A DNA stretch of 64,000 nt from Vulgatibacter incomptus (GTDB taxonomy: Bacteria; Myxococcota; Myxococcia; Myxococcales; Vulgatibacteraceae), in contig NZ_CP012332.1 in assembly GCF_001263175.1 (NCBI RefSeq), positions 1,857,501 through 1,921,500 on the forward strand, read 5' to 3'. Positions 48,708-59,664 of the stretch are shown in pieces. How positions within the stretch are numbered: the first letter of the stretch is position 1; every line of letters starts with the position of its first letter. The translations under genes and the position numbers were made by a program. The notes below the pieces were generated by a model. It had not been told where the DNA came from. It saw only the letters and a list, made by a program, of their open reading frames with translations, and did no database searches.

Positions 48708-51700
48708 CTACCGGTAGTGGAAGTACATCGACTGCCCGGACCGGAACCCATCCTCGTACTCGAACGACTCGAAGCCGCCGATGGCGAAGACCCCTGCCGA
48801 GGCGTCGTCGAAGTACTCGGGTCCGCCGGCGATCTCGTCGTAGGCGAACACGATGTCGCCCCCCTCCCATAGCTGGATCTGGAACGTGAGGGAGCCCTCT
48901 TCGTAGTACCGCTTGAAGCCCGTCCACTGGAGGATGAGCACATCGGAGGGCCCCACGGTCATCACCTCGTACTGGAACTTCGAGCCCGGCTGATCGGTGA
49001 GGTCGGCGTCGTACACGCGGAGGATCCCGCCGTCCCAAGCGGGCCACCACCAGTCGTCCAGGAAGTAGGCCGTGCCATCCGCCTGGACGTAGACCGTGGT
49101 GACCGGATCGCTTCCACCGTAGTAGGGGAAGTGGAACGGGATGCCTCCCGGGATCTCCGCCTGGCCGTAGTCCGAGTTCACGTCCGGGAGCTCGGTCCCG
49201 GTGGCCGAGATGTCGATGAAGGGCTTCGTCGAGTAGAAGTCGACGTCGTACTCAGAGTAACAGTCGACCCCACCCGCTCCGGGCGACCCCAGGTCGCCTC
49301 CTTCGCCGTAGGTCGAGGTCGAGACACACCAGGCGAACGAAGGGGTGAGGTCTCCCGCCTGGCGCTGCGTCTGCCAGGTTCCGTCGAGCGCGAGCGACGC
49401 CCCATGCGGGATCGTCCACCACGAGTTCCACGCGACCTGGCTGATCGGAACGCCGCCGAGTCCGATCGAGAGATCCCCTTCCGTCGAGTCGAGGGTGATG
49501 TCGTCGTAGACGTAGTCGGGCGTGAAGCCCGGCGAGTCGCTGGCGGCGAAGGTGAACCAGGCACCGGACGCGAGGAGGAGCGGACCGCCCGACTCGATCA
49601 CGTGGGATTGGTCGCCCGACCAGATGACCATCCCCTCGAGATCCATGGGCGCCGGCGAGAGGTTCCGAATCTCGAACCACTGGGCGGTGGGGCCACCCGA
49701 GGGATCGATCTGGAGCTCGGTGATCGCGACCAACCCGCGCGGCAGGACCTCGACGACGATCGTCTGGCAGTCGATGTCGCCCGTCGTCTGGGCGCAGATC
49801 ACGATCCGTCCATCGCGCCCCGGGCTCACCTGTGCCGACCCGGTCGCATCACGAGCTCCCTCGAAGCGCCACGCGCGGTTCGAGAGGCCGCCCGCCATCG
49901 CCCGGTTGTAGCTCAAGGTGGAACCAATCTCGCCAGAGGGGTCCTGGTAGCCGACGGTGGCGTTGCCTCCGTCGGCCCGCTCCTGGTCGGGTCCCATCAT
50001 CGCGCCGTAGCGGAACTCGAAGCTCCCATTCGGGAAGAGGATCACCTCGAAGTTCAGATTGGCGCCCGGCGCGGGCCAGTCGTAATACTGAACGCCCTTC
50101 CACTGGATCACGAAGCGATCCTGACCACCGTCGTCGAGGAGCTGCGCGTAGACGTGGCCCGTCTCGTAGGAGTGGAGATCGTCCCAGAACGGCGCGAGAT
50201 GCACGCCGGGGTTCCAACTGGACGGGAGGCGGTCGTGGTACGCCAACGTCCCCTGCTCCGGGTCGAAGCTCAGGAAGCCGTCGGACATCACGCGAACCGC
50301 GGTCCTGTCCTCCCCAGCGAACGGAAACGTGAAGCCGTTCGGGAAGTACACGTCCTCGGCGGCGGAATCCGCGTCGATGAGCCACGTCAGCTCGGTTCCG
50401 GTCGCGCTGATGTCGATGAAGGGCGCCTCGTCCGGATCGAGCTCGTCGAGCGCCGTGCCAAAGATCAGGACCGACACCGGATCGCCCGACGGGGAGCTCG
50501 CGCTCCACGAGACCGTCGTCGATCCACCTACGACGATGCGGGAGTCGCCAGCGCTGGCGGCGTCCAGCTGGACGCGCAGCACACGCACCGAGCGCCGCTG
50601 CGTGAAGCTCCGGCCGTCCTCTCGGGCGATCGTGAGCTCGTAGATCGTGGAGACCTCCGGAGCGGCGACGTAGGTATCGCTCGAGAAGTCGTATCCGGAG
50701 ACATCGAGCGGGAGGCCGTTTGCCGTGAGCGTGAGCGTCTCCGCGCCGTGGGTGAGCCAGGCGAGCGTGGTGGAGCCCCCCGGATCGATCACATCATCGG
50801 CGACCTCGAACGAATCGAGGCCGAACGGCACCCAGACCAGTACCTGGATCGTACGGCTCGCCGTCGAGCCCATGGCGCCGGTCGCCTCGACGGTAATGGT
50901 CTTGGCGCCCTCCGTGGCATCCGGGAAGGTGCAGGTTCCCTCGTCGAGAACCTCACCGGGTCCCGATATGCACACGACTCCCGTCTCGTCGGAAACAGTG
51001 ACCGTAAGAGCGTCGCGCGCGATCCACCGGACTTCGAAGGTGTCGCCCACGTCGACGTCCGCGGGAGCGGAGGCCGAGACGATTACCACGGGCTGCTCGA
51101 CCGTCACCGTCGTGGTCGCTGTGTGTTGGGTTCCGTCGTAGCCGTAGGCGGTCAGGGTGTAGACCTGGGTGGCGCTCGGGCTCACGATCGCGGACCCGTT
51201 GGGTCCGAGCGACGGATACGCGAAGCGGTATCCGGTACCCTCGAGATCCGGAACCTCGGTGCTGTAGGAGATCGTGGTCCCTTCCGAGCCCGAGGTGTTC
51301 TGGTAGCCGATCGTCGCGTTGTCCCCGCGGGCCCGCGAGAGATTCTCGTCGCTCCACATGGAGTCGTATCGGTATTCGAAGCTGCCGTCCTCCCAGAGCA
51401 CGATCTCGAAGTTGAGATCCGCGGGGTTGCCGGAGAGCTGGACGTGGCTCCACTGGACCACGAGGTACTGCCTGCCGTCGTCGCCCACTCCGACGTCGTA
51501 GAGGACGTCGCCGGTATCGACCCTGTCGAGATCGTCCCAGAACGCCGCGAGGTGCACGTAGCCGACGTAGTCGTCAGGGAGCTCGTAGTGGATGAAGTTG
51601 GACCCCGTGCGCTCGAGGTCGAAGCTGATCAATCCGTTCTCGTAGATGCGGGCCCGGGTGCGATCCGCCCCGTCGAACGGGAAGGCGAAGCCATCGGGGA

Positions 51701-54407
51701 AGCTCACGAGGGGGCAGCCCTCGTCGAGCCAGCTCGAATCGCAGTTGTCGAGGGGCGTGGTCCGCGCCGTCGCGCTTCCGCTCACGTCGATGAAGGGCTC
51801 GGTCGTCCTCTCGATGGAGTACCCGCGGGGCACGTTCACGTCGATGTGCGAGACGCCCCGGGTCTCCCACGTGAGCGTCGACGTGGTGCCCGCCAGGATC
51901 TGATCCGGCGTCGCCACGAATGAGACGATCTCCGCCTCCACCATGTCGACGTACGCCGAAGCCGTCACCTGGGCGCCGAGCTCGTTGGTCGCGATGGCAC
52001 GCCAGGCCGAGGCCACCTCCGGGCTGACCTGCAGGCTGCCACTACCGGCGGCGACCTGCGCAGGCGTGGCGACGAAGATCTCCGTGCCCTCGTTCCCGTC
52101 GGGGTCCAGCGCCTCGATTCGCAGCGAGGTCGCGTGAGCCGCGGTCCACGAGAGGGTCATGGGGATTCCCGAGCCCGGATCGTAGGACGGCGTGCTGGCA
52201 GCGAGCGTCACGGTCGGCGCATCGAGGACCTCCACGGACACCGTCGCCGTCGAGGGCGCGTACCCGGGGGTCGAGGCGGTCAGCGTGAACGTGCGGTCGC
52301 CGACGGCAGGGTGCACATCGAGCGATCCCTGGGCCGGCAGGCCTGCGATGGGGTACGCGGTCCCGAGGTCGTCGACGAGGGCGAGCTCTGCCGCGACCCC
52401 GCTCGCGTCGGTGCTCACGTCCCAGCGCAGGCTGACGCTCTGACCGGCGGTGATCCGCGGCGCGCTCCGGGTGAAGGAGGCGATCACGGGGCCGCCCTGG
52501 ACCGAGATGGTGATCGATCGCCGGCCCTCTCCACCCACGCCGTTGGTGACCACGAGCTCGTAGACGAAGTCGCCCGCCGCGGTCGGCGCCGCGACTGCGC
52601 AGGAGCCTCTGGCGACCCCGCCCAGGACCGAGGTCGCGCACGCCGGGATCGGGCCGTCCGGCCCCTCGACCCAGAGCACGATCCCGCCGAGGTTGACCCA
52701 CGAGAAGGTCACGGTCTCACCCATATTGACCGTCGTCTTGTCGGTGTCGAACGAGACGACGATGGGCGCGCCCACCGACACGGCGAGCGCCTGTTCCACG
52801 AGGTCGCCCGCCTCGTTCATTGCGCGGAGCGTGAAGGTGGAGTCCGCGGCGATCTGGGCGACGTACGTCCCTGTCGTGAGATGGGCCTCCACGGACAGCT
52901 TCGCGCCGTCCTGGAGCAGCTCGACTGCGGTCGCGCCGGTCGTCGTCCAGGCCAGCTCGAAGGACTCTCCCGCGCCGACCCGTGCAGGAGTCGCGGTGAA
53001 GGAGTCTACGATCGCCGGGGCCACCACGCGCACCGCCGCCATCGCGGTGGAGTTGCCCGCGGCGTTGGTGGCGGTGAGCACGAAGGCCGTGTCGACCGAA
53101 ACCTCCACCTCGACGGAACCGCTCTCGGCGTCCCCGGCGATCTCGACCACGCCGCCGGGCATCGCCTCGATCGTCGCGTGCGCACCAGGACTCGCGCTCC
53201 AATCGAGACGGACGAGGGCCGGTTCCACCGTCGTCGCGGTCACGAGCGACGGCGTCGCAGTTAGGCTCGCGTGCTCCGGAGGATGTAGCACGGGCACCGG
53301 GAGGAGGGTCGTCACCTCCTCCGAGCCGAGCTTCGCCACGAGGGAGAAGACGCCGCCGGTTCCCACCGGTGCGGCGAACGTGCCCTCGCTCCGAGCGCTC
53401 TCGGGGATATCGGCGATGAAGCCCTCGAGATTGGAGACGGTCAGGCTCTCGGCGCCCCTCGTCGTCCATCTCAACGGCAAGAGGTCTCCGGCGAGGACAT
53501 CCCCGTGGAACTCCGCCTCGAACGACGTGATCACCGGCAGCACACGCACCGTCACAAACGCGTCGACACTTCCGTCCCCGAGCGAGGCGACGAGCGAATA
53601 GGTCGTGGTGCGCGTGGGCGCGACGGTCGCCTCGCCCGCAGGACCGTCGCCTTCTGCCACAGTGGCGCCGAAGCCGTCGCCGATGGTCACGTGGACCGCG
53701 CCGGTCACGTACCAGGAGAGCACGGTCGTCGAGCCGAAATCGATCGCGCCGCTCGCTGCGGCGAATTCCACCCTCGGATCACTTCCCTCGACCTCCACCT
53801 TCACGCTCCGGCTCGCCACCTCCTCGCCTCGCTTCGCCTCGAGGGTGTAGGTCGTGGTCCGATCGGGGTTCACGACGATCGATCCCTCGCCGGGACCGGC
53901 GCTGCCGAGCTCCAGGTCGTGCCCCGCTCCGTCGTGGATCCGAATCGAATCGGCGTTCGTGGTCGTCCACGCGAGGGTGGCAGGCTCGCCCGGCGCCACC
54001 TTCGCGGGGGTGGCGGTGAAGGAGACCACCTGCGGGCCCTGAGCGCTTCGGACGGTCACGGTGACCGAGCCCTTCGCCTCGAGATCGCGGGCTCCAATCG
54101 CGGTCAGCTCGTAGGTCGTGGAGGCGCTCGGGTGGACCTCGACGCGCCCGTCGGCGGCCGGAGCGCCGCCGAGATCGATCTCGTGACCGCTGGCGTCGAC
54201 GAGGAGGAGCCGGAGCGCGTCGCGGGTCTTCCAGGCGATCTCCGAGGTCCCTCCGGCGTCGATCACGGGGGGATCGGCGCGGAGCTCGAGGACCTGCGGC
54301 GGGATTTCCTTGGCGCCCGAGCCTTTCTTGCCACCGCACGCGGCGATCAGCAGGAAAAGTGGCAGAACAAGTGACTTCGCGTGAAACCGGAACCGGAGAC
54401 AGCTCAT
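48708..54407 (-). CDS. Giant surface lipoprotein with about 13 Ig-like modules, nidogen-like repeats and a lamin-tail domain
   Basis: A 1899-residue lipoprotein. The signal peptide ends in the lipobox 'LLIAAC', and the ATG at 54407 has GGGAGG upstream. About ten Ig-like modules (roughly 30-870), each opening with a 'V.SF.ATP..V..GE...L.WTT.GA..' pattern, are followed by a nidogen-like module, three more Ig-like modules (about 1085-1330), and a second nidogen-like module. A lamin-tail domain follows (about 1556-1715: 'ITELQIDPSGG', 'WFEIRNLSP') and a third nidogen-like module ends the protein. Each nidogen-like module is preceded by a 'PFIDISATGTEL'-type tag (about 869, 1329, 1729) and contains 'HLAPFWDDL' and 'LNFEVILF' motifs. 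The layout suggests an adhesin or matrix-binding protein. It diverges from the peptidase/barrel gene. Confidence 0.82.
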   Translation of the reverse strand: MSCLRFRFHAKSLVLPLFLLIAACGGKKGSGAKEIPPQVLELRADPPVIDAGGTSEIAWKTRDALRLLLVDASGHEIDLGGAPAADGRVEVHPSASTTYELTAIGARDLEAKGSVTVTVRSAQGPQVVSFTATPAKVAPGEPATLAWTTTNADSIRIHDGAGHDLELGSAGPGEGSIVVNPDRTTTYTLEAKRGEEVASRSVKVEVEGSDPRVEFAAASGAIDFGSTTVLSWYVTGAVHVTIGDGFGATVAEGDGPAGEATVAPTRTTTYSLVASLGDGSVDAFVTVRVLPVITSFEAEFHGDVLAGDLLPLRWTTRGAESLTVSNLEGFIADIPESARSEGTFAAPVGTGGVFSLVAKLGSEEVTTLLPVPVLHPPEHASLTATPSLVTATTVEPALVRLDWSASPGAHATIEAMPGGVVEIAGDAESGSVEVEVSVDTAFVLTATNAAGNSTAMAAVRVVAPAIVDSFTATPARVGAGESFELAWTTTGATAVELLQDGAKLSVEAHLTTGTYVAQIAADSTFTLRAMNEAGDLVEQALAVSVGAPIVVSFDTDKTTVNMGETVTFSWVNLGGIVLWVEGPDGPIPACATSVLGGVARGSCAVAAPTAAGDFVYELVVTNGVGGEGRRSITISVQGGPVIASFTRSAPRITAGQSVSLRWDVSTDASGVAAELALVDDLGTAYPIAGLPAQGSLDVHPAVGDRTFTLTASTPGYAPSTATVSVEVLDAPTVTLAASTPSYDPGSGIPMTLSWTAAHATSLRIEALDPDGNEGTEIFVATPAQVAAGSGSLQVSPEVASAWRAIATNELGAQVTASAYVDMVEAEIVSFVATPDQILAGTTSTLTWETRGVSHIDVNVPRGYSIERTTEPFIDVSGSATARTTPLDNCDSSWLDEGCPLVSFPDGFAFPFDGADRTRARIYENGLISFDLERTGSNFIHYELPDDYVGYVHLAAFWDDLDRVDTGDVLYDVGVGDDGRQYLVVQWSHVQLSGNPADLNFEIVLWEDGSFEYRYDSMWSDENLSRARGDNATIGYQNTSGSEGTTISYSTEVPDLEGTGYRFAYPSLGPNGSAIVSPSATQVYTLTAYGYDGTQHTATTTVTVEQPVVIVSASAPADVDVGDTFEVRWIARDALTVTVSDETGVVCISGPGEVLDEGTCTFPDATEGAKTITVEATGAMGSTASRTIQVLVWVPFGLDSFEVADDVIDPGGSTTLAWLTHGAETLTLTANGLPLDVSGYDFSSDTYVAAPEVSTIYELTIAREDGRSFTQRRSVRVLRVQLDAASAGDSRIVVGGSTTVSWSASSPSGDPVSVLIFGTALDELDPDEAPFIDISATGTELTWLIDADSAAEDVYFPNGFTFPFAGEDRTAVRVMSDGFLSFDPEQGTLAYHDRLPSSWNPGVHLAPFWDDLHSYETGHVYAQLLDDGGQDRFVIQWKGVQYYDWPAPGANLNFEVILFPNGSFEFRYGAMMGPDQERADGGNATVGYQDPSGEIGSTLSYNRAMAGGLSNRAWRFEGARDATGSAQVSPGRDGRIVICAQTTGDIDCQTIVVEVLPRGLVAITELQIDPSGGPTAQWFEIRNLSPAPMDLEGMVIWSGDQSHVIESGGPLLLASGAWFTFAASDSPGFTPDYVYDDITLDSTEGDLSIGLGGVPISQVAWNSWWTIPHGASLALDGTWQTQRQAGDLTPSFAWCVSTSTYGEGGDLGSPGAGGVDCYSEYDVDFYSTKPFIDISATGTELPDVNSDYGQAEIPGGIPFHFPYYGGSDPVTTVYVQADGTAYFLDDWWWPAWDGGILRVYDADLTDQPGSKFQYEVMTVGPSDVLILQWTGFKRYYEEGSLTFQIQLWEGGDIVFAYDEIAGGPEYFDDASAGVFAIGGFESFEYEDGFRSGQSMYFHYR

Positions 54408-54619
54408 GCAACCTCCCGGATCCACACCTGATTTCAAGACATGAGCCTGAATGGGCCGTATCCCGAACGGGTGGAATCATCCGAACTCGACGAGGAGCTA
54501 GGAAAACTCGGCGCTACTTCCATGTCAAACCGTTGAACCGCCGAGGGGCGGTAGCGCTCGCTCACCGAGGGGGCGGAACCGCATCCGGGAGGCGCCCGGT
54601 CGAGCCGTTGCCGCTCGGG

Positions 54620-57600
54620 ATGGGGCGCCCTACCGTGTCGGCACCGGTCATTCGAAGCCTCGAGTGCCGGATCGCAGGGCCCTTCGTGCGATCAGCCCGA
54701 CTCTTGCCGCTCCTTGCCGTGCTGCTCGGATGGCCTGGCCCTGCCGTTGCTGCCCCCCTTCCGTTCGCGCGGGAGGGCGGCGGTCCCAGGCACCCGGGCC
54801 TCGGTCTCGCGCTCCCGGCGCTCCAGCCTCCCGGGGCGCTGCCGGAGGTCTACGTCGTTCCACGAACCCCCGGCCAGAACCAGGTGCGGTGGTACGGATT
54901 CAAGTTCAAGGAGGTGCTGCTCCCGCAGCTGCCCGGCGCAGGTGTTCGTCTCTTCTACTATCAGTCAGAGACGAAGGCGGCAGAGGTCGCGGCCGGCGTG
55001 ATCCGCGAGCAATACATGCAGCTGGCCCGGGCCTTCGACTACGTCCCGGAGCGAGAGGTCCCCTACGTCCTCTACGCCACCCACCTGGAGTTCCAGGCCA
55101 CCAACCTCTTTCCGATCAGCGAGGGCGTCCTCGGCGTCACGAGCCCCAGCGAGCTCACGCTCACCCTCCCCTTCTTCGGCGATCTGGAGCAATACCGGCA
55201 CACCTCCACCCACGAGCTCACCCACGAGTTCACGATCCAGATCGTGCGCTCGGCCGGTGAAGCGGCGGGGAGGCCCGGCGGCCTCGGAGGCTTTCCGCTC
55301 TGGTTCATCGAGGGACTGGCGGAGTACGCGGCCTACGGCGGCATGGATCCGGACGGCAAGCCGGGGCCGGAGCCCCGAGGCGCTTCGGGCCCTTCGCTTC
55401 CGGGCCTCGATCCCGACACCGAGGCATGGGCGCGGGATCTTCTCTATCGATCCTCGCCCTTCGAGGGCTACCTGATCCCGCCCTTCTACTCCGACTATCC
55501 CATGGGGTACGTCCACACCTACAAGCTGGGCCAGCTCCGGGTTGCCTTCATGGGCGCCACCTTCGGCAGGGAGCTCATCATCTGGCTGCTGAAGAACGCC
55601 AGCACCATGGGCCTCGCCGACGAGCGCGGCGCGGGCGTGAAGTTCCCCGAGCTGGTGAAGATGGGCACCGGCTACGACAAGGAGACGATCGAGAGGCTCT
55701 TCGCCGACTGGATCCAGCGGCGCTACCTGCCCGCCTACGACCAGGCCCGGACGCGGGTTCCCTCCCTCCAACCGATCGACAACGTCCCGGTCGAGGCCGA
55801 GCTGGTCGTGGCCTCGCCGGACGGCAAGACCCTCCTGATGCGCGGCTTCGATCGGGAGCTCGGCGAAGGCTCGCTCTGGCTGCTGGAAGGGGACAATCCC
55901 GGCAAATCGCAGCTCGTGGTCAGGGACTCCCGCCCGGGCCTCGAGTCCCTCCACCTGATCTCCCGGCGGACCTTTGCGCTCGGCAACGAGCGGATCGCCT
56001 GGATCGGCCGCGCCGGCGAGGCTGACGTGCTCACCGTGGCGCGCCTCGAGAAGCCGCCGGAGGGATCGAGCGACCTCTTCCGAATCACCGACCGACGCTC
56101 CTTCGAGCTGGTGAAGCACCACATCCTCGAGGGCGGAGATCCGACCTTCTCTCCGGACGAGCGGCGGATCGCGTTCTCGGGAGTTGACACCAACGGTTTC
56201 AAAGACGTTTACATCATGGACGTGGACGAGGGATTCTCGTCCCTGCGCCGTGTGACCCAGGGGCCCTTCTCCAAGAGCGGCCTGTCCTGGACCGCCGACG
56301 GGATCTACCTCGCCACCGACGCGGCTCCCGACGGCGACGCCAACATCGGGCTCCTGGATCCCGAGACCGGCGCCATTCGGGTCGTGGTCGCGGACCGCTC
56401 GATCAAGGAGTGTCCGGTGCTCACACCGGCCGGGCTCGTCTACGCTTCGAACCTGGGCGGGCGGTGGGATCTCTACCGGATCGAGGATGGGGTCGCCTGG
56501 AGGATCACGGACGTCTCCACGCTGATCCGCTCGCCGGCCGTGGGCGCCAAGGGAAGCCTCTACGGGATCATCGTGCACGGCGGCCACTTCCGCCTGGCGC
56601 GGCTCCCCCCCGTGGAGATCCTCCGGCTCGACGGGAGGCCCCCCATCGCCGCGGACTACGATCCCACGCCTCGCCCTCTCCCGATCCTCCGACTGCCCGA
56701 GGTGGCCCCCGAATACAGGCCCTTCGATCACTTCGGCATCGACATGGGCGGCATCCAGGTGGGGACGCAGACCGTGGCCGTCGGCGGGATCTCGTTCTCG
56801 GACCTGCTTCGCGATCGCCTGCTCGCCGTCCAGCTCGCCGTCTACGGCAGCCTCGACTTCACCGACGCCAGCGCGATCTTCCTCGACCGTTCGCAGCGCA
56901 CCACCTGGCTCGCCGGGATCTTCCATACCTTCCAGCCCAAGCGCGACCGCACCTTCGGCACACCGGCGCTGCCGGACAACCCCGACTTCTTCCTGGAGCG
57001 GGAGTTCGGCGCCATGGGCGGGCTCTCCTACCCTTTCAACCGCTTCGAGCGCATGGACGTGCTGCTCACGGTGGAGGGCGTCCACCGCTCGCGATTCACC
57101 GACCGTCGCGGGACCCGAGACGCAGCGTGGGAGGAGCTCACGGGCGGGAACGACCTGCAGCTCCTGGCCACCGCGGGCTACGGTCTCGACACCCTCCGCT
57201 ACCACCCTTTCGTCGGCCCCATCTCCGGCTCGACCGTGCTGTTCGCGGCGGGCACCTCCATCCTGCCGCAGCGCCTGAACGTCGGGGGGGCTGGGGTGAA
57301 CGGCTGGGCCGAGTTCGACCTCCAGCACTTCTTCTACCTCGGCGCCCGCTCCACCTTCTGGACCCGGGCCGCCGCCGGCTCCGCGTTCGGCGGCCGGTTC
57401 TCGCGCCAGTTCTACCTCTCCAGCGTCGACAACCTGCGGGGCTACCACTGGTCCGACGATCGCCTCCTGGGCACCCACTACTACGTGGCGAACGCCGAGC
57501 TCTCGTTCCCGCTGGACTGGCTGATCCGGATCGCGATCTTCGAGGGTCTGCGCGGCGTCGGGGCGGTCGACTTCGGCGGCGTCACCGACCACTACGAACA

Positions 57601-57757
57601 GCTCCTCGACGCGCGCTCCCTCGACCTCGCGGTGGGCCTGGACTTCCTCGCCGGGCCGCTCGCGATGAGGCTCCACTTCGGCTACCCGATCCAGATCGGC
57701 CCGGTGCTTCCCGCCGACGGCTGGGTGACGAACTTCGCGCTGCGGCTCCGCTACTGA
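54620..57757 (+). CDS. Exported peptidase-MA/beta-propeller/outer-membrane barrel fusion
   Basis: A protein of about 1045 residues. After a signal-like segment (about 25-45) comes a peptidase MA-like domain with the gluzincin zinc site His198-Glu199-X2-His202 ('HELTH') and Glu231 in 'WFIEGLAEY'. A TolB/PD40-like propeller follows (about 380-660: 'PTFSPDERRIAFSG', 'LSWTADGIYLATDA'). The C-terminal third resembles an Omp85/surface-antigen barrel ('RLNVGGAGVNGW', 'NLRGYHW') and ends with the aromatic 'ALRLRY', as expected for BAM-inserted proteins. It would place a metallopeptidase at the outer membrane. ATG 54620 is the best start; GTG 54635 is possible. The 3' end overlaps the convergent 5'-nucleotidase-like gene by seven bases. 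Confidence 0.8.
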   Translation: MGRPTVSAPVIRSLECRIAGPFVRSARLLPLLAVLLGWPGPAVAAPLPFAREGGGPRHPGLGLALPALQPPGALPEVYVVPRTPGQNQVRWYGFKFKEVLLPQLPGAGVRLFYYQSETKAAEVAAGVIREQYMQLARAFDYVPEREVPYVLYATHLEFQATNLFPISEGVLGVTSPSELTLTLPFFGDLEQYRHTSTHELTHEFTIQIVRSAGEAAGRPGGLGGFPLWFIEGLAEYAAYGGMDPDGKPGPEPRGASGPSLPGLDPDTEAWARDLLYRSSPFEGYLIPPFYSDYPMGYVHTYKLGQLRVAFMGATFGRELIIWLLKNASTMGLADERGAGVKFPELVKMGTGYDKETIERLFADWIQRRYLPAYDQARTRVPSLQPIDNVPVEAELVVASPDGKTLLMRGFDRELGEGSLWLLEGDNPGKSQLVVRDSRPGLESLHLISRRTFALGNERIAWIGRAGEADVLTVARLEKPPEGSSDLFRITDRRSFELVKHHILEGGDPTFSPDERRIAFSGVDTNGFKDVYIMDVDEGFSSLRRVTQGPFSKSGLSWTADGIYLATDAAPDGDANIGLLDPETGAIRVVVADRSIKECPVLTPAGLVYASNLGGRWDLYRIEDGVAWRITDVSTLIRSPAVGAKGSLYGIIVHGGHFRLARLPPVEILRLDGRPPIAADYDPTPRPLPILRLPEVAPEYRPFDHFGIDMGGIQVGTQTVAVGGISFSDLLRDRLLAVQLAVYGSLDFTDASAIFLDRSQRTTWLAGIFHTFQPKRDRTFGTPALPDNPDFFLEREFGAMGGLSYPFNRFERMDVLLTVEGVHRSRFTDRRGTRDAAWEELTGGNDLQLLATAGYGLDTLRYHPFVGPISGSTVLFAAGTSILPQRLNVGGAGVNGWAEFDLQHFFYLGARSTFWTRAAAGSAFGGRFSRQFYLSSVDNLRGYHWSDDRLLGTHYYVANAELSFPLDWLIRIAIFEGLRGVGAVDFGGVTDHYEQLLDARSLDLAVGLDFLAGPLAMRLHFGYPIQIGPVLPADGWVTNFALRLRY

Positions 57758-59664
57758 GGACGCTTGAGCGGCCGAATCCGGCCGAAGGTCTCGGGCCGCG
57801 CCGGGTCGGGGTCCGCGTAGCTCTTCCCTCCCTCCCACTCGCCCGCTTCGTCCAGGTGGAGGAGGAAGGCCCGAAGCGCGTGCTGCTCGCGCAGCTGCGC
57901 TGGCACGGTCCGGATCGCGAGGGACTCGGCGGTGGTCGGGAACCACCCGTCCCCGCCGCGCGCCAGGTAGTCCAGCGTCGCGAAGGATATCGTCGCGTCG
58001 GGGTCCAGCAGGATCCCGTCGCGGACGACCTCGATCACCGCCCCGCCGCTATCCACTGAAAGAGTCCGAACACGCGACCCAGGGTGAAGGCCGGCGTCTT
58101 GCCCCTGCTCGGTCCCATCGGGATCGTAGGCCAGGAAGAGCTCGCCGCTCACCTGGGGGAAATGTCCCCGCCCGGTGCCGACGCCCCGCAGCGCCGCCTC
58201 GAACGTCTCCTTCAGCGCGCGGTGGGTCGCGGTGACCACCACGATCGGGTTGTCGAAGCGCAGCGCGGCCTGGACGTCGAGCACCCGGACGAGACCGCCC
58301 CGCCTCTCGAAGGAGTCGTGATCCACCACGCCGATGGAGCTCCGGATGCCGCCGCCGTTGCGCAGGCCGAACGTCACCTCCTCCGCGCCTGCCGCCCTCG
58401 CCGCCCACGCGATCGAATCGGCGCTCAGGTTGCCCAGGTTGGTCTCGCGGTTGCGCACGTTCTCCCGGTCGCCGTCCAGGTAGCGATCGCTCCTCGCCAC
58501 CACCTCGCCCAGGGGCTCGAGGGCGTCGCGCACGCGCGCCTCCAGCGCACCGGCAGGGCTGGCGGGCGCGGCTCCCAGCTCCCGGAGCGAGCGGTCATCG
58601 GAAGGCCAGGGCCGCGAGGCGTCGTCATAGCCCACCAGCACGCCCTGGTCGTCGAAGGAGAGGCCGAGCCGGCCCAGGTACTGGTACTGGCCGTCCGTGG
58701 CGACGATCAGCACTGGCTTGCCGTCGCGCGCGCGACGCACCAGGGGATAGCAGGTCGGCTCGCCTTTGCAGACCGGCGACGGCTCCTGTCCCGGGAGCAG
58801 GCGATGCGTTCTTTCGGCGAGGCGATCGTCGCCGCCGCCGCCCACGATCACGTCCACCCCGGTCAGCCCCGCCTCGACGAGGGCGATTTCGCGCCGGACG
58901 TCCTGGAGGTGGGAGAGGAGGACGACGATGTCCACGCCCTCCGCCCCGAGGGCGTCGACCTGGGCCTGCACCCGCCGGACGATCGAGGGGAAGTCGCTCA
59001 CGCTCCTCGACGCCAGGGCCGTGCTGGCGATCGACGCCAGGGTCTCGGTGGTGGCGCCCACGACTCCCAACGTGATGCCCGAGCACACGGGCGTCTCCCC
59101 CCGCACAACCAGCCTCCCGGCGCAGAGCTTGCCGCGAGGCAGGATCCTGCCGGGGTGGAGCTCGAGCCAGGGGCTGGGCTCGCCCTGCGGGACGCGCACG
59201 GCGAGGGCGGCCATCGGGCCGTCGTCGAAGTCCACGGTGGAGGTGAGGATGGGGTAGCCGGCCTTCGCCACCATCTCGGCGAGGAAGGACTCTCCCCTGT
59301 CGAGCTCGTGGTTCCCGAGGGCGGTGGCCCGGAGACCGATGCGGTTGTTCGCCAGGGCCACCACGTTCTCGCCCTCCAGCTCGAGCTGGAGCGCCGGCGC
59401 CGGCATGAAGAGATCGCCCGCGGCCAGGAAGACGGTGGGCTCGGGCCCAGACGAGAGGGCGCGAGAGAGAGCGGCGAATCGGCCGATGCCGCCGTGGGTG
59501 GCGCCATCGCCGGCGACCAGCTCCGACTCCATGTCCGAGGCGTGGAGCAGCACCAGCCGGCGCTCGGCAGGCCTCGTCGAGAATCCGCCTTCCTCGGGAC
59601 GGACCGCGCTCCGGGCGGCACAGCCGGCGAGCAGGAGGGCCGCAGAGACAAGCAACCACCGCAA
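57751..59664 (-). CDS. 5'-nucleotidase-family lipoprotein with degenerate metal site
   Basis: A 637-residue lipoprotein (lipobox 'LLLAGC') with the two-domain 5'-nucleotidase layout. In the N-terminal metallophosphatase domain, Asp84 ('GDLF'), Asn118-His119 ('GNHE') and His252 ('LSHL') are kept. However, the usual Asp-X-His is Asp44-Met-Glu46, and the usual 'GHxH' motif is replaced by 'GGGGDDR' (about 275-281). The C-terminal substrate domain keeps 'RNGGGIR' and 'RGGDGWF'. Normal members hydrolyse nucleotides in the periplasm; here two metal-binding positions differ, so activity is doubtful or altered. The TTG start has GGGAGC about seven bases upstream. Confidence 0.8.
   Translation of the reverse strand: MRWLLVSAALLLAGCAARSAVRPEEGGFSTRPAERRLVLLHASDMESELVAGDGATHGGIGRFAALSRALSSGPEPTVFLAAGDLFMPAPALQLELEGENVVALANNRIGLRATALGNHELDRGESFLAEMVAKAGYPILTSTVDFDDGPMAALAVRVPQGEPSPWLELHPGRILPRGKLCAGRLVVRGETPVCSGITLGVVGATTETLASIASTALASRSVSDFPSIVRRVQAQVDALGAEGVDIVVLLSHLQDVRREIALVEAGLTGVDVIVGGGGDDRLAERTHRLLPGQEPSPVCKGEPTCYPLVRRARDGKPVLIVATDGQYQYLGRLGLSFDDQGVLVGYDDASRPWPSDDRSLRELGAAPASPAGALEARVRDALEPLGEVVARSDRYLDGDRENVRNRETNLGNLSADSIAWAARAAGAEEVTFGLRNGGGIRSSIGVVDHDSFERRGGLVRVLDVQAALRFDNPIVVVTATHRALKETFEAALRGVGTGRGHFPQVSGELFLAYDPDGTEQGQDAGLHPGSRVRTLSVDSGGAVIEVVRDGILLDPDATISFATLDYLARGGDGWFPTTAESLAIRTVPAQLREQHALRAFLLHLDEAGEWEGGKSYADPDPARPETFGRIRPLKRPQ

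Follow-up and report, generated by a model that had tools for sequence, protein, structure and literature searches.

A single gene of the window, the 64,000-nucleotide stretch of DNA that was analysed, encodes an intact zinc-peptidase, a TolB-like beta-propeller and an Omp85 barrel in one chain of 1045 aa. The gene spans positions 54620-57757 on the + strand and was defined by its open reading frame, profile matches, AlphaFold2 models and codon-position GC. Its peptidase-propeller-barrel order, already proposed in the first-pass annotation, was confirmed. The domains, the invariant zinc site, the POTRA-less Omp85 fold and the wide conservation are computed results. The protein is probably an outer-membrane-anchored zinc endopeptidase that acts on the periplasmic side, in envelope processing or quality control.

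Gene and domain architecture

The host genome consists of a single contig of 4,350,553 bases and is placed in Myxococcales by its relatives. The reading frame of the fusion gene is open from 54359, upstream of the ATG at 54620, and its stop codon ends at 57757; the codon-position GC of the ORF 54620-57757 (0.69/0.48/0.90) is like that of a real high-GC gene. A probable signal peptide region at 54620-54751 (+) contains the hydrophobic stretch LLPLLAVLLGW and a putative AVA/A cleavage site, as judged from the sequence and the start contexts. A GTG at 54686 is preceded by AGGG and gives the clean signal peptide MRSARLLPLLAVLLGWPGPAVA/A; because this is cleaner than the one obtained from the ATG at 54620, the GTG may be the true start. 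The closest relative found for the 1045-aa protein is 63% identical and is encoded in MAG ZC4RG40.

The gene stands alone. A divergent ORF starting about 180 bases upstream (48708-54437, - strand) encodes a 1909-aa protein with Ig-like repeats, matches to NIDO and lamin-tail domains and a lipoprotein-like N-terminus (LLIAACGG). This protein has no counterpart at the matching position of the sister genome (L031) and was therefore gained here or lost there. On the other side, a 5'-nucleotidase-type gene (57751-59664, - strand) converges on the fusion gene with a 7-base overlap and is kept in the sister genome. Neighbourhood clustering of 43 loci found no adjoining gene conserved outside close lineages, so that the loci offer no operon-based clue and indicate no partner. 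In Myxococcales the fusion gene is a conserved single-gene unit.

The full-length AlphaFold2 model, built from a 28-sequence alignment (pLDDT 81.4, pTM 0.83), shows three clear domains. The gluzincin (clan MA) zinc-peptidase domain covers residues about 86-385 (54875-55774, +) and was identified from the full model, the domain modeled alone (pLDDT 87.7) and fold and profile matches. In the full model, residues 96-385 form a mixed alpha/beta domain with HELTH in helix 189-216. The domain alone matched the peptidase domains of clostridial M9 collagenases and the M1 aminopeptidases, the fit to these nearest solved folds being moderate (TMq about 0.5), and the peptidase profile search gave M9 collagenases at 0.028. 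Peptidase_MA_2 scored 0.097 and 12.9 bits on the single protein, below the cut-off of 32.4; L143 and L203, distant relatives that both come from another genome, passed that cut-off, and other family members match MA_2, M61 or M9 with varying significance. Across 28 homologues, profile matches were obtained to PD40 in 27, M61 in 19, Omp85 in 11 and Peptidase_MA_2 in nine. For the single protein the MA_2, M61 and M9 scores are sub-threshold; membership of M61 or M9 was weighed, and the protein was not assigned to any one of these families.

Next, at 55775-56719 (+), come a six-bladed propeller of TolB type (about 24 strands, residues 392-673) and the linker to the barrel, as indicated by AlphaFold2, Foldseek and profiles, with a PD40 match at residues 506-531. 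TolB propellers were retrieved from the PDB by Foldseek at 1.6e-9, the whole-protein profile search returned TolB at 2.4e-24 and BamA at 0.0016, and PD40 matched the single protein at 1e-6. A Foldseek search of viral models gave mostly propellers and fibres.

The C-terminal Omp85-type outer-membrane barrel, residues 706-1045 (56735-57754, +), was likewise recognized by AlphaFold2, Foldseek and profiles. Structure prediction had been suggested beforehand as a check of the barrel topology; it gave a barrel of 16 strands across residues 706-1043. In the PDB, Foldseek matched it to the TamA barrel (8us4, TMt 0.72), SAM50 and BamA, and the Omp85 profile scored 1.7e-4 on the single protein (21.7 bits, just below the 24-bit cut-off). 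The L6 motif of (V/I)RG(F/Y) type is represented by LRGY (residues 939-942; 57434-57445, +), placed between strands 11 and 12 by the model and the alignments; its Arg is kept in 24 of the 28 sequences of alignment A1 and in 20/20 of the wider set A2. Both features of the Omp85 superfamily, a C-terminal 16-stranded barrel and the L6 motif, are present, and the chain ends in ...NFALRLRY, the 'LRLRY' end pointed out at first pass. A POTRA domain is absent from the model, as only about 33 residues join the propeller to the first barrel strand. Hydrophobicity alternation was tried as evidence for the barrel and rejected: it is above shuffles in the barrel strands (p about 0.007), but the propeller strands alternate as much, so that it does not argue for a barrel.

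Zinc site, conservation and distribution

The HELTH zinc-binding and catalytic motif (residues 198-202; 55211-55225, +) has H198, E199 and H202 invariant in alignments A1 and A3. The WFIEGLAE motif (residues 228-235; 55301-55324, +; WFIEGLAEY at 228-236) has invariant W, E, G and E and aligns with the W-x-EG-AE of M9 collagenases; within it, E231 probably serves as the third zinc ligand. The gluzincin signature, HExxH with a downstream Glu as third zinc ligand, is accordingly both present and conserved. Tyr301 (55520-55522, +) is also invariant and, by comparison with clan MA, is a candidate transition-state-stabilising residue.

In the whole-protein search H198, E199, H202, W228, E231, G232 and E235 were invariant in 31/31 full-length homologues, whose identity to the query is mostly 31-43%. 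The earlier reading of HELTH...EGLAEY as an N-terminal zinc-peptidase site is borne out at the level of sequence. The zinc motif was also found in all of 15 further homologues, and neither set of hits had been picked by it. A contig scan seeded with zinc motifs was left out as evidence of conservation because its patterns are those motifs, and the search was redone with a peptidase-less query. This propeller-barrel query was alignment A2, whose rows came from the zinc-seeded scan but which contains no peptidase column. The sample comprised 146 genomes of Myxococcota (the host phylum), 118 of the phylum of the Ignavibacteria locus, 78 of a Bdellovibrionales phylum and eight outside genomes. Every propeller-barrel locus with its N-terminus covered carried the zinc motif (43/43; 38 strong, three divergent and two from further checks), as did 52/52 N-terminus-covered sequences (48 from the propeller-barrel query and four from the paralogue family). 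HExxH followed by an aromatic/hydrophobic-x-EG segment is common to all N-terminus-covered sequences, the divergent subfamily included; the residues before EG vary among relatives, with WFM, WMN and HWFL (among 14 sequences) and WYIEG (three sequences). Conservation is strongest in the peptidase, with a mean pairwise identity of 0.49 and 31 invariant columns, as compared with 0.40 and 10 for the propeller and 0.42 and 17 for the barrel. In these alignments the conservation of the zinc site is far beyond chance.

Strong matches were found in most Myxococcales genomes sampled, in 54 of the 118 genomes of the Ignavibacteria-containing (Ignavibacteria/Bacteroidetes) phylum and in only 2 of the 78 genomes of the Bdellovibrionales phylum (Bdellovibrionota), with lone members in Zixibacteria and Krumholzibacteria MAGs. 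Seven Omp85-domain proteins are encoded in the host genome, one of which is a second, distant tripartite protein of 993 aa (genome positions 1064050-1067028, - strand; locus L209:1551-4529) with HEYVH...FLTEGLATY, PD40 and Omp85; the family to which it belongs is distributed across Myxococcota. The tripartite architecture is a widespread orphan family, recurrent in many bacteria. The idea of a rare arrangement finds no support, in view of this spread, the second copy in the same genome and the overlap with the published WD40-Omp85 class.

Several variants were observed. Proteins of about 1035-1135 aa that combine the same peptidase, propeller and barrel (L203-L205 and L244-L263; e.g. HELVHA...PLWMNEGFAEY) form a divergent subfamily, which is common in the Ignavibacteria-containing phylum and often co-occurs there with the shorter form. 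Orthologues of a Myxococcaceae-like group, f4 (L043, L044, L049, L050 and L053-L056), are extended at the N-terminus by long Asp/Gly-rich stretches and carry a short tail past the final barrel strand, which leaves the chain without the usual terminal aromatic residue. One orthologue (L208, G148:C77) is split into two frames of 860 and 687 aa by a frameshift or an assembly error.

Orientation in the envelope and possible roles

The predicted barrel superposes on that of TamA (8us4) in sequence order, and the TamA N-terminus is periplasmic. Inter-strand gaps average 12.3 residues on the would-be extracellular side and 5.1 on the would-be periplasmic side, and LRGY takes the L6 position that the motif has in other Omp85 proteins. 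PlpD, an enzyme-Omp85 fusion once called secreted, has had its enzyme shown to be periplasmic (PMC11116518). This barrel orientation, together with the case of PlpD, makes the periplasm the most likely location of the peptidase. The first-pass annotation had allowed for the cell surface or the periplasm; the same evidence favours the latter and speaks against the former.

As an outer-membrane-anchored endopeptidase, the chain would be exported by Sec, and the C-terminal Omp85-type barrel would insert in the outer membrane with both barrel termini on the periplasmic side. Directly under the barrel, where BamA has its POTRA domains, the TolB-like propeller would hang, presenting the N-terminal gluzincin peptidase and serving as a docking platform. 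The peptidase would cut envelope proteins close to the periplasmic surface of the outer membrane, among them outer-membrane proteins that have misfolded or stalled, lipoproteins or exported precursors; the barrel may do no more than anchor the enzyme. The periplasmic side, the endopeptidase activity and the class of substrate are what we infer. At BAM, outer-membrane proteins that stall are cleaved by the zinc protease BepA, and the propeller BamB docks on BamA (PMC13067283); by analogy, BepA acting at BAM is the nearest functional counterpart, BamB taking the part of the propeller. It counts against the endopeptidase reading that BepA is an M48 enzyme, another peptidase type than the gluzincin found here. 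Further points against it are the only moderate match to solved peptidase folds, the unconserved gene neighbourhood and an orientation derived from a predicted model and an analogy.

The genuine Omp85 fold with its L6 RGY motif would also suit an assembly or translocation factor, in which the barrel is an active insertase or gated channel, the peptidase trims or releases passengers, and propeller and peptidase replace the POTRA domains. Other well-studied Omp85 proteins assemble or translocate proteins (PMC4104836, PMC11116518). Such a role is nevertheless rather unlikely here, given the lack of POTRA and of a partner gene in the neighbourhood of the 43 loci, and PlpD is a case of an Omp85 barrel serving an enzyme with no demonstrated role in assembly. 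A single-chain machine, in which an active barrel (gate or insertase) would feed polypeptides past the propeller to the peptidase, thereby fusing BAM-like and BepA-like functions co-inherited across several phyla, is considered unlikely.

Delivery of peptidase and propeller to the cell surface, either through the barrel or past it, for action on outside proteins, would agree with prey digestion by myxobacteria, with the secreted nature of M9 collagenases, the nearest fold, and with the type Vd secretion suggested earlier for PlpD (as cited in PMC11116518). The secretion claim for PlpD has been overturned (PMC11116518), however, and by the orientation of the barrel the N-terminal domains lie on the periplasmic side, which argues against type Vd delivery as well. 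A folded peptidase-propeller of ~600 residues would have to cross a narrow barrel, and the family is wide, including Anaeromyxobacter and MAGs of the Ignavibacteria/Bacteroidetes phylum, with no predation tie seen; a surface protease is therefore quite improbable. The sub-threshold Pfam score of the peptidase in the single protein could point to a non-proteolytic protein, with a zinc site that is structural or for binding only, or a vestigial peptidase. We give this hardly any credence, as the catalytic Glu, the three zinc ligands and the candidate Tyr are conserved across phyla and neither the propeller nor the barrel is as well conserved as the peptidase.

Comparison with known systems

PF00149 is the calcineurin-like phosphoesterase family and not a peptidase family. 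In PMC4104836 this family defines the 'Metallo' Omp85 (Omp85-metalloprotease) class, which is therefore probably not a protease class. The same paper describes the WD40, Metallo and noNterm Omp85 classes as being without POTRA. The WD40-Omp85 subfamily was described in 2014 by Heinz and Lithgow, who likened its propeller to TolB and BamB and proposed a BamA-BamB-like assembly platform (PMC4104836). WD40-Omp85 proteins and the fusion share a TolB-like propeller directly before an Omp85 barrel and the lack of POTRA; the available WD40-Omp85 text mentions no peptidase (PMC4104836), whereas a gluzincin was found here in every propeller-barrel relative with its N-terminus covered. As far as the sequences and that text indicate, the propeller-barrel was already known, and what appears to be new is the intact zinc-peptidase, an overlooked enzymatic part of the WD40-Omp85-type class. 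No description of the tripartite architecture was found in the main texts of the openly accessible literature. Propeller-Omp85 proteins have had orphan status since 2014, and with a zinc-peptidase in every propeller-barrel relative checked the question moves from what is assembled to what is cut.

M9 collagenases (ColG/ColH/ColT), Peptidase_MA_2 and Peptidase_M61 share with the fusion an HExxH followed about 25-30 residues on by W-x-x-EGxAE. The fusion differs from M9 collagenases in an identity of about 15%, the lack of collagen-binding modules and the attached outer-membrane barrel. As in TolB, the PD40 propeller is six-bladed, with the best sequence and fold match at residues about 480-630; TolB is soluble, periplasmic and has its own N-terminal domain, for which no match was found in the fusion. 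From the POTRA-bearing Omp85 proteins of BamA, TamA and PlpD type the fusion is set apart in that their periplasmic POTRA domains, at least one in each, have no counterpart found in it. Like BepA with the BAM complex, the fusion brings together a zinc protease, an Omp85 barrel and a propeller (BamB in BAM), the protease acting on the periplasmic side of the outer membrane in BepA and probably also in the fusion; BepA belongs to M48 and is a protein of its own, whereas the fusion holds all parts in one chain with a peptidase of M9/M1/M61/MA_2 type (PMC13067283). PlpD likewise joins an N-terminal hydrolase to an Omp85 barrel, but it is a dimeric lipase with one POTRA, in contrast to the zinc-peptidase, propeller and absent POTRA of the fusion (PMC11116518). 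If the reading as an outer-membrane-anchored endopeptidase is true, a widespread class of outer-membrane-tethered proteases would stand beside the PlpD-type lipases.
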